A DNA stretch of 64,000 nucleotides. Origin: Streptomyces sp. 7-21 (GTDB lineage: Bacteria; Actinomycetota; Actinomycetes; Streptomycetales; Streptomycetaceae). This document shows, one piece after another, positions 3,338 to 8,421 of the stretch (position 1 is its first letter; each line of letters starts with the position of its first letter). The stretch spans positions 186,001 through 250,000 of the forward strand of contig NZ_JAERRL010000006.1 of assembly GCF_016741785.1 (NCBI RefSeq). The letters are read 5' to 3'. The notes beneath the pieces are model-generated. The model was not told the DNA's origin, ran no database searches, and worked only from the letters and a program-made list of their open reading frames with translations. Made by a program: the position numbers and the translations under genes.

Positions 3338-3483
3338 CAACCGCACCGCCTTCCGCCCCGCTGATGGATCAAGGAAGACTACTGCGGCTCCCCCCGGGCG
3401 TGCAGCCCGGTCCGCCATGATGTACCGGCCGAGGCCCGGCCGTGCCGCGCTTGCCCGCGCGGCTGCCGGGGCAGAGGGTTCCC

Positions 3484-5931
3484 ATGACGCCTGCGCACCG
3501 CATGCCCACCGCCACCTACCGCGTGCAGCTGCAGCCCGCATTCCCCTTCGCGGCGGCTGAGGAGATCGTCCCCTACGCGGCTTCCCTGGGCGTCAGCCAC
3601 CTGCACCTGTCACCGGTGCTGGAAGCGGTGCCCGGCTCCGCGCACGGCTACGACGTCACCGACCACGGCCGGGTGCGCCAGGAGCTGGGCGGCGAGGAGG
3701 GGCTGCGGCGGCTGTCGCGGACGGCCCGGGCGCATGGCCTGGGCCTGATCGCCGACATTGTGCCCAACCACATGGCGGTGCCCGCGCGCACCGAGCTGAA
3801 CCGGCCGCTGTGGGAGGTGCTGCGGGACGGGCGGGCCTCGCGGTTCGCCCGCTGGTTCGACATCGACTGGGAGGCCGGCGGCGGCCGGGTGCTGCTGCCG
3901 GTGCTCGGCGGCCCGCTCGCGGACGAGCTGCCGGCGCTGACGGTCGAGGACGGGGCGCTGTGCTACGGCGAGCACCGCTTCCCGCTCGCGGCGGGCACGG
4001 CCGGCCTGCCGCTGCCCGCGCTGCTGGAGGCGCAGCACTACCGGCTGGCCTGGTGGCGCCTGGCGCGGACCGAGCTCAACTACCGCCGCTTCTTCACCGT
4101 CTCCGGCCTGATCGGGCTGCGGGTGGAGGATCCGGAGGTGTTCGAGGCCACGCACGCGACCATGCTGCGGCTGCTGGCGGAGGGGGTGATCGAGGGCCTG
4201 CGCGTGGACCACCCCGACGGCCTCGCCGACCCCGGCGGCTATCTGCGGCGGCTGCGGGAACGGGCGGACGGGGCCTGGATCGTGACGGAGAAGATCCTCG
4301 GCGCGGGTGAGCAGCTGCCCGCCGCGTGGCCGGTGGCGGGCACCACCGGATACGACGCGCTGCGCCACATCGACGGGGTCTTCCACGACCCGCAGGGCTG
4401 TGCGGAGCTGACCGAGCATTACCGGGCGTTCACCGGCGCCCCGCCCGACCACGGGGGCGAATGGGACGCCACCGTCCTGCGCGCCGCGTACAAGGTGGTC
4501 ACCCACGAGCTGGCCGCCGAGACCAGCCGCCTGGCCCGCGCGGCGGAACGCGTCTGCGCCGCCGATCCCGGGCTGCGGCTGCGGGACCACGCGCCCTGGG
4601 CACTGCGCACGGCGCTGACGGAGCTGCTGGTGCGGCTGCCGGTGTACCGGCCCTATGTCGAGGCCTCCTCGCCTCCCTCGCCGGTGGACGAGGCCATGCT
4701 GGAGACGGCCGCCGCCGCGGCGCGGGCCAGGTTCGAGTCCGGCGAGGAGGCGGCGGCCGTGGACACCGTGCGGGACCTGGTGCTGGGACGCTTCGGCGAG
4801 GGCGGCGACCTGACGGATGTGCGGGTGCGGTTCGCGCAGGTCGCCTCGGCGGTGCGCGCCAAGGCCGTGGAGGACACCGCGTGTTACCGGTACGTGCCGC
4901 TGCTGTCGGCCGCCGAGGTCGGCGGCGACCCGGGCCGGCCGGCGCTGCCGCCGGAGACGTTCCACGCGTTCTGCGCCCGCGTGCAGCGGGACTGGCCGCG
5001 CACCGGCACGGTGCTGACCACGCACGACACCAAGCGCAGCGGTGACGTGCGGGCGGCGCTCGCGGCGCTGAGCGAGCATCCTCACGACTGGGCGGACCTG
5101 GTGGCGCGGCTGACCGAGGAGACCGCGCGCGCGGGCGTGCGGGCCCCTGACCCGCACCTGGCGTGGGCGGCCTGGCAGACGGCGCTGGGGCTCGGCGAGC
5201 CGGACCACGAGCGGCTGCTGGCCGCGGTGCTCAAGGCGGCGCGGGAAGCGGGGCTGCACACCTCCTGGACGGAGCGCGATACGGCCTACGAGGCGGCGGT
5301 CGAGCGGTTCGTGCTGGCCGGGCCGGGGCGGCAGCCGTACGCGCTGCGCGAGTTCCGCCGGGCGCTGGCGCCGCGGGTGCGGGCCGCCACGCTCGGGACG
5401 GCGCTGCTGCACCTGACGATGCCCGGCGTGCCGGACGTGTACTGGGGCAGCGAGACCCGCTATCTCGCGCTGGTGGACCCCGACAACCGCCGGCTGCCGC
5501 AGCTGCCGGTCGCCGCGCTCGCCGCGCTGGACGCTCAGGCGCCGGGCGCGGTCACCGAGGGCGGCGGGGCACCGCCCGCGTACGACCTGCCGGCGGAGAA
5601 GCTGCGGGTGACGGCGGCGGCGCTGCGGCTGCGGCGGGAACACCCCGGGTGGTTCGGCCCGCGCGGCGGCTACCAGCCGCTTCCGGCGGAGGGACCCGCC
5701 GCGGCGCACTGCCTGGCGTTCGCCCGCGCCGGGCGGGTGATCACGGCCGTCACCCGGCTGCCGCGCCGCCTGGCGGAGTCGGGCGGCTGGGCCGGCACCC
5801 ACCTGCCGCTGCCGGACGCCGGGCGCTGGCGCGACGTGCTGACGGGCCGTGCGGTGGCGAAGAAGGCACGGCTGGCAGAGCTGTTCGCCGACGGCCCGGT
5901 GGCGCTGCTGGTCCGGGACGAGCGGCGCTGA
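3484..5931 (+). CDS. treY: malto-oligosyltrehalose synthase
   Basis: TreY converts the reducing-end linkage of a maltodextrin from alpha-1,4 to alpha,alpha-1,1, yielding maltooligosyl trehalose in the cytoplasm. The 815-residue product is an expected length and opens with the family signature TYRVQLQPAF. GH13 catalytic elements are present: the nucleophile Asp at about 242 in GLRVDHPDGLADP, the acid/base Glu at about 269 in WIVTEKIL, and the third carboxylate in LTTHDTKRSGD. The C-terminal VYWGSETRYLALVDPDNRR block is also characteristic. ATG 3484 follows GAGGG at a short spacer; GTG-free upstream sequence argues against a longer form. treZ lies 684 bases downstream on the same strand; treX (debranching) is not in this window. 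Confidence 0.95.
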   Translation: MTPAHRMPTATYRVQLQPAFPFAAAEEIVPYAASLGVSHLHLSPVLEAVPGSAHGYDVTDHGRVRQELGGEEGLRRLSRTARAHGLGLIADIVPNHMAVPARTELNRPLWEVLRDGRASRFARWFDIDWEAGGGRVLLPVLGGPLADELPALTVEDGALCYGEHRFPLAAGTAGLPLPALLEAQHYRLAWWRLARTELNYRRFFTVSGLIGLRVEDPEVFEATHATMLRLLAEGVIEGLRVDHPDGLADPGGYLRRLRERADGAWIVTEKILGAGEQLPAAWPVAGTTGYDALRHIDGVFHDPQGCAELTEHYRAFTGAPPDHGGEWDATVLRAAYKVVTHELAAETSRLARAAERVCAADPGLRLRDHAPWALRTALTELLVRLPVYRPYVEASSPPSPVDEAMLETAAAAARARFESGEEAAAVDTVRDLVLGRFGEGGDLTDVRVRFAQVASAVRAKAVEDTACYRYVPLLSAAEVGGDPGRPALPPETFHAFCARVQRDWPRTGTVLTTHDTKRSGDVRAALAALSEHPHDWADLVARLTEETARAGVRAPDPHLAWAAWQTALGLGEPDHERLLAAVLKAAREAGLHTSWTERDTAYEAAVERFVLAGPGRQPYALREFRRALAPRVRAATLGTALLHLTMPGVPDVYWGSETRYLALVDPDNRRLPQLPVAALAALDAQAPGAVTEGGGAPPAYDLPAEKLRVTAAALRLRREHPGWFGPRGGYQPLPAEGPAAAHCLAFARAGRVITAVTRLPRRLAESGGWAGTHLPLPDAGRWRDVLTGRAVAKKARLAELFADGPVALLVRDERR

Positions 5932-6615
5932 CCCCCCTCTGATCCCCTTGCGGGCCTGCCGTCCACCAGCTGCCGCGCCCTCGCCCGCGGCGACGGGCCG
6001 TCACCGGCGGGCCCACCGCGCGGTTCCGGCCACGTCACGGCGGGCGACGCGCGGGCGGCACGGCCGGACCGGCTCCGCCGCCTGTCGTCCTGCCAGCCGC
6101 GCGCGGACCCGCGCCGGGCGAGGGCACCGGCGACGGGATCGTGCTGCCGTTGCGTCAGGAGTCTTTACAGCAGTACGTCGGCAGGGTTACGGTCCCTCGT
6201 GGTGGGAGCGCTCCCACCGCCTCATGGGTCATCCCCCACCTCATCACGGCCGGAAGGGACACAGCGCGATGCGTGACCACCCACCGCGGCGGGCATGGCC
6301 GCGCAGTTCCGCCGCCGTCCGGGCGGTCCCGGCGCGCCCGTCCTTTCCCGTGACGGCCCGTGAGGTGCCCCCGGAGGCCGCGGAGCCAGCGCGCCGTGAC
6401 GCCCGTACGAGCCGTCGCACGCACGGCGGGGCCGCCGCCCCGCCCTGGGCCTCCGGCCCCGCACGGCAGGCCGCCCTGGCCGGCTGAGCGGTTCCGGATT
6501 TCCGGCCTGCTGCCCCACCTCCCAGCCCCCGCTTGGGTGGCAGGCCGGATTCCGTCCTTGCCCACCGTCCCGCGCGGCGCCCCCACGTCGCGCGGGGCGG
6601 TGGAACCATGACCAC
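5932..6615. other. 684-base treY-treZ intergenic region
   Basis: This gap holds a perfect CebR-type palindrome (listed separately). A short open frame begins at ATG 6269, 52 bases after the palindrome and 10 nt behind GGAAGGG, and runs to 6487. Its 72 codons give an Arg/Pro/Ala-rich sequence with no hydrophobic core, domain or signal peptide. I do not call it a gene, but the operator-RBS-ATG layout looks like the front of a CebR-controlled gene that has been lost or has decayed. The rest looks like ordinary GC-rich spacer. Confidence 0.5.
6201..6218. promoter_or_regulatory. perfect CebR-type operator
   Basis: The sequence is a perfect 18-bp palindrome whose core, TGGGAGCGCTCCCA at 6203-6216, is identical to the 14-bp CebR box known from Streptomyces cello-oligosaccharide uptake and cellulase genes. 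CebR is a LacI-family repressor released by cellobiose or cellotriose. The identity with the published box is established knowledge; occupancy here is inference. Confidence 0.8.
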
Positions 6616-8421
6616 ATGACAGCACCCAGCCCGTCCGTGACGCCGTTCTCGGTCTGGGCGCCGCGTGCGGAGCGCGTCACGCTCCACCTCGCGGGCCGAG
6701 CGGTGGCGATGCGCCCCGACCCGGCGCGCGCTGGCTGGTGGCGCGCTGAGGAGCCCGCCGCGCCCGGCGACCGGTACGGCTTCTCGCTCGATGGCGGCCC
6801 GGTCCGTCCCGACCCCCGGGCGCGCCGGCTGCCGGAGGGGCCGGGACGCCCCGGCGCGGTCACCGCGCTCGGCGCGTACCGCTGGCGCCACTCCTGGGCC
6901 GGGCGGGGGCTGGGGGCGGACACCGTGCTGTACGAGCTCCACGTCGGCACGTTCACGCGCGAGGGCACCTTCGACGCGGCGGCGGCGCGCCTGGGCCACC
7001 TGGCTGCCCTCGGCGTCAGCCACGTCCAGCTGATGCCGGTCTGCCCGTTCCCCGGCCGGCACGGCTGGGGCTACGACGGGGTCGCGCCCTGGGCGGTGCA
7101 CGAGCCGTACGGCGGCCCCGAGGGACTCCAGCGCTTCGTGGACGCGGCGCACGGCCACGGCCTGGGTGTGGTGCTGGACGTGGTCCACAACCACCTGGGC
7201 CCGTGGGAGAACCGGCTGGCAGAGTTCGGCCCCTACTTCACCGACCGCCACCACACTCCCTGGGGCTGGGCAGTCAACCTCGACGGGCCCGACGCCGCCG
7301 AGGTGCGCGCCTACTTCACCGGCAGCGCCCTGGCGTTCCTGCGCGACTACCGGCTCGACGGCCTGCGGCTCGACGCCGTGCACGCCCTGTGCGACGACAG
7401 CGAGCCGCACTTCCTGGCGGAGCTGTCACGGGCCGTGGACGACCTGGCCGCCGAGCTGGGCCGCCCGCTCTTCCTGATCGCCGAGTCCGACCAGAACGAC
7501 CCCGCCACGACCGCGCCCCGCGCCGAAGGCGGCATGGGGCTGGCCGCGCAGTGGAACGACGACTTCCACCACGCGCTCCACGCCGCGCTGACCGGCGAGT
7601 CACAGGGCTACTACGCCGACTTCGCCCAGCGCCCGCTCGCCGCCCTGGCCAAGACCCTCACCGGGGCGTTCTTCCACGACGGCGGCTACTCCTCCTTCCG
7701 GGGCCGCGCCCACGGCCGTGCGCCCGACCGCGACGCCACGGCGGCGGGACGGTTCGTCGGCTACGCCCAGACCCACGACCAGATCGGCAACCGCGCGCTC
7801 GGCGACCGGCTGGCCGCGCTGGCCGGCCAGCAGCGGGCGGCGCTGGCAGCGGCGCTGGTGCTGTGCGGGCCGTTCACGCCGATGCTCTTCATGGGCGAGG
7901 AGTGGGGCGCCACGACGCCCTGGCAGTACTTCACCGACCACCAGGACCCGGCGCTCGCGCGGGCGGTGAGCGAGGGGCGGCGGCGGGAGTTCGCCGGGCA
8001 CGGCTGGCGCGCCGGGGACATCCCCGACCCGCAGGACCCGGCGACACGCGAGCGCTCCTGCCTGCGCTGGCCCGCGGACCCCGCCGGGAACCGGATGCTC
8101 GGCTGGCACCGCCGCCTGATCGCAGCCCGGCGCGCCCATCTGCCGCCGGACCTGCGGCTGGCGGACGTGGAGGTGCGCCATGACGAGCGCGAGGGCTGGC
8201 TGGCCGTCCGCTCCGGCCCGCTGGTCGTCGCCGTCAACGTGGCGGCCGGCCACACCACGGCCGCCCGGCTGGCCCCGGGGCGGTACACGCCGCTGGCCGC
8301 TACCTGCCGCTGTGACCCGCCTGGCGGCGACGGGCGGCTGCGGCTGCCGCCGCTGTCAGCGGCCGTGCTGCTGCGGGAGCCGGTCAGGACTCGACCGCCA
8401 GGCCGACGCCCAGGGCGATGA
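6616..8421 (+). CDS. treZ: malto-oligosyltrehalose trehalohydrolase
   Basis: TreZ hydrolyses maltooligosyl trehalose next to its terminal trehalose unit, releasing trehalose. The 601-residue protein starts with a short beta-domain (FSVWAPRAERVTL, residues 11-23) and then a GH13 barrel. Catalytic residues are visible: Asp253 in GLRLDAVHAL, Glu290 in LIAESD, Asp388 in THDQIGNR. FMGEEWGATTPWQYFTDH is a typical TreZ block. It follows treY on the same strand but 684 bases away, so it probably has its own promoter. Its 3' end overlaps the convergent LysE-type gene by 38 bases, and the last 15 or so residues (RTRPPGRRPGR) look like read-on tail, not conserved enzyme. Confidence 0.95.
   Translation: MTAPSPSVTPFSVWAPRAERVTLHLAGRAVAMRPDPARAGWWRAEEPAAPGDRYGFSLDGGPVRPDPRARRLPEGPGRPGAVTALGAYRWRHSWAGRGLGADTVLYELHVGTFTREGTFDAAAARLGHLAALGVSHVQLMPVCPFPGRHGWGYDGVAPWAVHEPYGGPEGLQRFVDAAHGHGLGVVLDVVHNHLGPWENRLAEFGPYFTDRHHTPWGWAVNLDGPDAAEVRAYFTGSALAFLRDYRLDGLRLDAVHALCDDSEPHFLAELSRAVDDLAAELGRPLFLIAESDQNDPATTAPRAEGGMGLAAQWNDDFHHALHAALTGESQGYYADFAQRPLAALAKTLTGAFFHDGGYSSFRGRAHGRAPDRDATAAGRFVGYAQTHDQIGNRALGDRLAALAGQQRAALAAALVLCGPFTPMLFMGEEWGATTPWQYFTDHQDPALARAVSEGRRREFAGHGWRAGDIPDPQDPATRERSCLRWPADPAGNRMLGWHRRLIAARRAHLPPDLRLADVEVRHDEREGWLAVRSGPLVVAVNVAAGHTTAARLAPGRYTPLAATCRCDPPGGDGRLRLPPLSAAVLLREPVRTRPPGRRPGR

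Follow-up and report, generated by a model that had tools for sequence, protein, structure and literature searches.

The CebR site and its regulon have been published genus-wide (PMC4898821, as far as its available text goes), and among AA10 LPMO genes the closest described counterpart of the locus considered here is celS2 (scab21081) of Streptomyces scabies, for which the accessible part of the report gives a perfect CebR box at -177 (PMC5332605). Both celS2 and the window, by which we mean the whole 64,000-nt stretch of DNA that was analysed, carry a perfect TGGGAGCGCTCCCA box, and in celS2 this box lies upstream of the LPMO start codon. In the window, in contrast, the coding sequence is gone, while a control region and a 3' hairpin remain between treY and treZ. 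We propose that the feature is very probably the control region of a CebR-controlled AA10 LPMO gene whose coding sequence has been lost in this lineage. That a control region outlives its gene is a known kind of event, and the present case appears, from synteny, to be an instance of it. In the literature that our search reached, we found no paper on a treY-LPMO-treZ arrangement or on orphan CebR operators; searches for treZ together with LPMO found no paper, and those for operators left after gene loss found nothing fitting.

A perfect CebR box between treY and treZ

The window is part of contig 55 of a 4.81-Mb genome that is 99.96% complete, and the nearest named TreZ loci are almost all from Streptomyces. 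The parts of the locus are as follows.

3442..5931, + strand: treY, malto-oligosyltrehalose synthase (NCBIfam TIGR02401 above cut-off; synteny)
6164..6192, + strand: putative promoter block, TTTACA - 17 nt - TTACGG (alignment of 13 leaders; shared with the LPMO genes of relatives)
6203..6216, no strand assigned: CebR box, perfect, 14 bp (pattern search, base-composition expectation)
6227..6281, + strand: LPMO leader, including the ribosome site (6252-6259), the start codon (6269) and the opening codons (87-88% identity to genomes G053 and G287)
6269..6487, + strand: 72-codon frame opening at the former LPMO start codon and ending with TGA at 6485-6487 (no Pfam match, no codon pattern)
6282..6500, + strand: 219 nt in place of the LPMO coding sequence (no clear similarity to LPMO coding DNA)
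6501..6549, + strand: hairpin, found in relatives downstream of the LPMO stop codon (identity, fold, covariation)
6562..6603, + strand: second hairpin, 18 pairs, directly before treZ (fold -41.5 kcal/mol, z -6.2)
6616..8421, + strand: treZ, malto-oligosyltrehalose trehalohydrolase (NCBIfam TIGR02402 above cut-off)

A pattern search of the 64,000-nt window found the exact 14-bp palindrome at 6203-6216, which is also the only place with fewer than three mismatches to the CebR box; with up to three allowed there are 10 matches, against 9.4 expected, and the other nine all have three. Base composition predicts 0.0009 perfect boxes per window and 0.066 per genome, whereas the genome holds 12, with 23 places at one mismatch or fewer, and a reversed-pattern control over the whole genome gave 0 matches with one mismatch allowed. 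The box begins 271 nt past the treY stop codon and lies 52 nt before the ATG at 6269, which is preceded by a ribosome site (GGAAGGGA, 6252-6259), and 399 nt before the treZ ATG. The sequence-only reading had described a perfect 14-bp core, a 52-base spacing to an ATG with a good ribosome binding site and a treZ gene about 400 bases downstream, and all three hold. The TTTACA-17-TTACGG block upstream of the box (6164-6192) is presumably a promoter, judged from the alignment of leaders, and a strict sigma-70 scan did not call it.

The treY-treZ locus in relatives carries an AA10 LPMO gene

Comparison of the treY-treZ gap in related genomes, as the sequence-only reading had suggested, revealed an intact gene at this place in 14 loci, and it encodes an AA10 LPMO. 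We examined 80 named treZ loci, with treY found in the available upstream DNA of 60. In seven of the 80 (S. pini, S. barkulensis, S. sp. YIM 98790, S. rugosispiralis, S. violaceusniger, S. endocoffeicus and S. hygroscopicus) a perfect box stands a short way past treY and an LPMO gene comes immediately after it; the remaining 73 contain no box at zero or one mismatch in any part of the locus examined. Among 14 further relatives chosen by TreZ similarity, box and AA10 gene occur together in three and the other 11 again have no box with 0 or 1 mismatch. G172, G287, G346 and G702, which have both, and G604 were chosen by DNA match to the window and are therefore not a random sample, and the relatives as a whole are a sample rather than an exhaustive list. 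Wherever an AA10 gene stands next to treY, a perfect box precedes it (14/14 loci examined), and the window and G604 were the sole cases of a perfect box after treY without an AA10 gene. The loci closest to the window share about 75% TreZ identity, and we found no conspecific genome that carries an intact copy.

In the relatives treY lies upstream of the LPMO gene, and the loci of S. pini (L040), S. barkulensis (L041), G053 (L160) and G172 (L217) have the orthologous place, box, leader and start codon in common with the window, G053 and G172 also sharing the hairpin. These four loci encode complete AA10 proteins, while the window does not. The AA10 catalytic domain PF03067 is present in L041 and L217, and a domain scan gives the S. 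barkulensis protein as AA10 + CBM2. The G287 locus (L218) stops before treZ, so that the position of its LPMO gene is known only as following treY. Between LPMO and treZ the relatives often have an FHA-domain gene on the reverse strand and an acetyltransferase gene, both of which are missing from the treY-treZ gap of the window; a genome search with the acetyltransferase of G137, which had no positive control, gave no match.

Some details of individual loci may be recorded here. In G702 two tandem LPMO genes follow treY, each with its own perfect box (L265:5748-7610); parts of this stretch are N, and because of the N runs the domains of these genes are seen only in part and L265 is missing from the LPMO tree. 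Within the LPMO coding sequence of G172 (L217:6145-6158) the W-E-R-S-D codons read TGGGAGCGCTCCGA, one mismatch from the CebR box, and the same is seen in L160 and L218; this is probably a coding coincidence. G172 also has an additional one-mismatch box, TGGGAGCGCTCCCG, about 30 nt past the treY match and upstream of the perfect box (L217:5249-5262), and G053 has a similar additional box.

What remains of the gene in the window

With the gap (5901-6660) as query for DNA matches in relatives, two pieces were recovered. The first, 6227-6281, matches leaders that precede intact LPMO genes in G053 and G287, and the second, 6501-6576, has 80-90% identity over 49-76 nt to G287, G053 and G172, where it lies shortly past the LPMO stop codon; the two pieces flank an intact LPMO gene in G053, G287 and G172. 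When 394 genomes of the family were searched with 6203-6600, both pieces turned up in G702, where they enclose an AA10 gene and are separated by about 970 nt. Over the aligned leaders, the window has 66-72% identity to G172, G287, G053 and both G702 copies, and those neighbours have 66-76% identity among themselves, with the near-identical G172/G053 pair left out. The loci are orthologous, the flanking pieces are retained and the coding sequence is absent. A homologous leader and 3' hairpin, in the same order after treY, mark the region as an LPMO control region by descent.

The hairpin at 6501-6549 folds with -31.8 kcal/mol (z -4.1). Seven aligned loci have standard pairing in 98.9% of the cells of its 13 pairs, both partners have changed in three pairs, and 1 of 500 shuffles reached the covariation score. 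This supports, rather than proves, conservation of the helix, as the seven loci are related. In the window the helix has two G-U pairs where the six other loci have G-C. We consider the hairpin a probable terminator lacking a T-run; a strict terminator scan called neither this nor the second hairpin, which has no T-run either. The second hairpin ends 12 nt before the treZ ATG, and G137 likewise has a long hairpin just before treZ.

No AA10 domain (PF03067) follows the old start codon, and no gene for cellulose use stands behind the box in the window. The frame that starts there begins at the LPMO start codon, and its stop lies 14 nt short of the hairpin, a distance that is 17 nt in G053, 25 nt in G172 and 48 nt in G287; this layout gives it the look of a shrunken gene. 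An LPMO shortened in frame is nevertheless unsupported, the interior having neither reliable similarity to LPMO codons nor a codon pattern. The best local score of the 219-nt interior against LPMO coding DNA was reached by 8 (G172), 173 (G287) and 41 (G053) of 300 shuffles, for anchored extensions the count was 6 to 85 of 120 shuffles, and Rfam gave no match. G+C over the three codon positions is flat in the 72-codon frame (0.82/0.79/0.84) as against treZ (0.79/0.58/0.94), and this, together with the lack of a Pfam match, makes the frame look non-coding. It is probably meaningless, in agreement with the earlier statement that it codes for nothing recognisable. Since the interior has no clear LPMO similarity, the loss is deduced from the flanks and from synteny and not from a pseudogene.

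A second scar in G604

The locus of G604 (L266; box at 7733, reverse strand) reads treY, TTTACA, 22 nt, perfect box, about 22 nt, hairpin and FHA gene, with no LPMO at the locus and with the same hairpin as in the window. Both loci have a perfect box after treY and this hairpin without an LPMO gene, but G604 has lost the -10 block and the leader, has box and hairpin just about 22 nt apart, and still contains the FHA and acetyltransferase genes. The G604 scar is more eroded than that of the window, and its hairpin may have been kept also as the end of the opposing FHA gene. A TreY+TreZ tree of 37 rows places the window in an 11-row clade that consists of eight LPMO carriers, the two scars and G137, which has neither box nor LPMO; the tree gives no firm branching order for the window, G604 and their sister groups. 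Repeated loss is its simplest reading, but the window and G604 may share a single loss, though the retained pieces differ. The two loci offer two degrees of erosion of one control region, a small natural series on which control elements outlive their gene.

Proposed history and present state of the locus

In the history that we consider very probable, a coding sequence of about 900 bp, as judged from relatives, was replaced by 219 nt of unrecognisable DNA, with the promoter block, the CebR operator, the leader, the ribosome site, the start codon and the hairpin after the gene all kept. CebR would still be able to occupy the box, near the expected start of the transcript, and to repress it, and cellobiose would release CebR. 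The transcript would be about 340 nt long and end at the hairpin at 6501-6549, and translation from the ribosome site would yield at most a 72-residue peptide without meaning, whose frame bears no sign of selection. The sequence-only reading had offered a lost secreted glycoside hydrolase gene that left its control region. The loss and the retention of the control region agree with our proposal, and the hairpin 3' of the lost gene proves to be kept as well, but the identity of the gene does not agree, as the orthologous loci hold an AA10 LPMO, an oxidative enzyme, and not a glycoside hydrolase.

Other explanations of the box must be weighed against the loss of an LPMO gene. The high G+C of the window is all that favours a chance match, and we reject one as having practically no likelihood, given the 0.0009 expected in the window, the empty reversed-pattern control and the conserved promoter block, leader and hairpin that surround the box in orthologous order. 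A relocation of the LPMO gene to another site in the genome, with a copy of its control region staying behind, is also exceedingly improbable. The genome has five LPMO genes, and the one at C58 gives this idea some colour, as it has a near-perfect box and is 57% identical to the treY-treZ LPMO of S. barkulensis. The C58 type, however, sits elsewhere in relatives that also carry a treY-treZ LPMO, members of its group occupying such other sites in G172, G287, G053, G059, S. pini and S. barkulensis; on a 35-row tree C58 belongs to a 10-row clade (support 100) that contains no treY-treZ LPMO, and its leader differs. The other four LPMO genes are further off on that tree than C58, and with all five outside the treY-treZ LPMO groups we reject a move.

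Two further explanations concern what the locus does now. The sequence-only reading had proposed as its alternative that CebR controls treZ, and in its present form this would mean that after the LPMO loss the CebR promoter drives treZ by read-through, with cellobiose inducing the TreZ step of trehalose synthesis. The box lies upstream of treZ on the same strand at the distance given above, the intervening genes of the relatives are gone from the window, a strict scan recognised no separate treZ promoter, and neither hairpin has a T-run. We nevertheless find CebR control of treZ unsupported and consider it highly unlikely, because in the relatives the box belongs to the LPMO gene, with further genes before treZ, and because two strong terminator-like hairpins (-31.8 and -41.5 kcal/mol; 6501-6549 and 6562-6603) stand between box and treZ in the window, so that treZ could be reached by read-through only. 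The absent T-runs and the negative strict scan are the main weakness of this hairpin argument. In the literature as far as it was accessible we found no paper linking CebR and treZ, and the available text of PMC4890002 mentions trehalose only as a non-ligand of CebE. Somewhat less improbable, though still unlikely, is that the empty cassette has been put to a new use, as a cellobiose-switched short RNA or peptide or as an operator that titrates CebR. The promoter block, box, leader and hairpin have all been kept, the identity of the leader to those of intact neighbours is close to the identity among these neighbours, and G604 keeps a perfect box after the loss, which under a new use would reflect selection and not lag. 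Against this, the interior has neither a codon pattern nor a known RNA family, G604 lacks the -10 block and the leader, and retention may simply mirror the time since the loss. Were the cassette active, it would provide a CebR-controlled RNA without a coding gene.

If the LPMO gene was lost as we propose, the locus is a clean case of motif-based regulon prediction pointing at the wrong gene. A box scan would place treZ, or an invented 72-residue protein, in the cellulose regulon, whereas the relatives point to a lost LPMO.

The CebR regulon of the genome

At C6:10583 a box is flanked by the genes for a LacI-type regulator and a solute-binding protein; two permease genes and a GH1 gene come next. 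This is the cebR-cebEFG-bglC arrangement, and from this gene context we name the LacI-type regulator as the CebR candidate, although it reached the cut-off of no NCBIfam equivalog. The genome therefore does have a candidate CebR homologue, beside transporter and GH1 genes, and the proposals of the sequence-only reading, which it had let stand or fall with such a homologue, are not overturned on this count. Other perfect boxes adjoin genes for GH5, GH6, GH9 (two), GH48/GH6 and CE2 and, at C2 and C45, LPMO genes; the perfect box at C8 precedes a gene that was read by eye, and not by domain scan, as a CBM-bearing GH10 xylanase. Of the 12 perfect boxes, that of the window alone has no recognisable or conserved gene of its own.

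Two further loci of the genome deserve mention. At C4 (L180:2897-5204) two TGGAAGCGCTCCCA boxes, 133 nt apart, lie between a GH6 gene and the divergent gene of another LacI-type regulator, which suggests a second cellulose-linked regulator. At C3 an ORF of 71 residues (L174:4088-4303, corresponding to C3:111883-112098) begins 73 nt after a perfect box (C3:111796), beside a GH9 gene, and has no match in Pfam or NCBIfam. Its homologues occupy seven loci in 6 of the 17 genomes searched, its own genome counted; three weaker ones have no box, and the four in its own genome, G287, G702 and G604 have a perfect box 79-88 nt upstream and share the tail NRRSxFNRRSR. We regard this ORF as a candidate small member of the CebR regulon.
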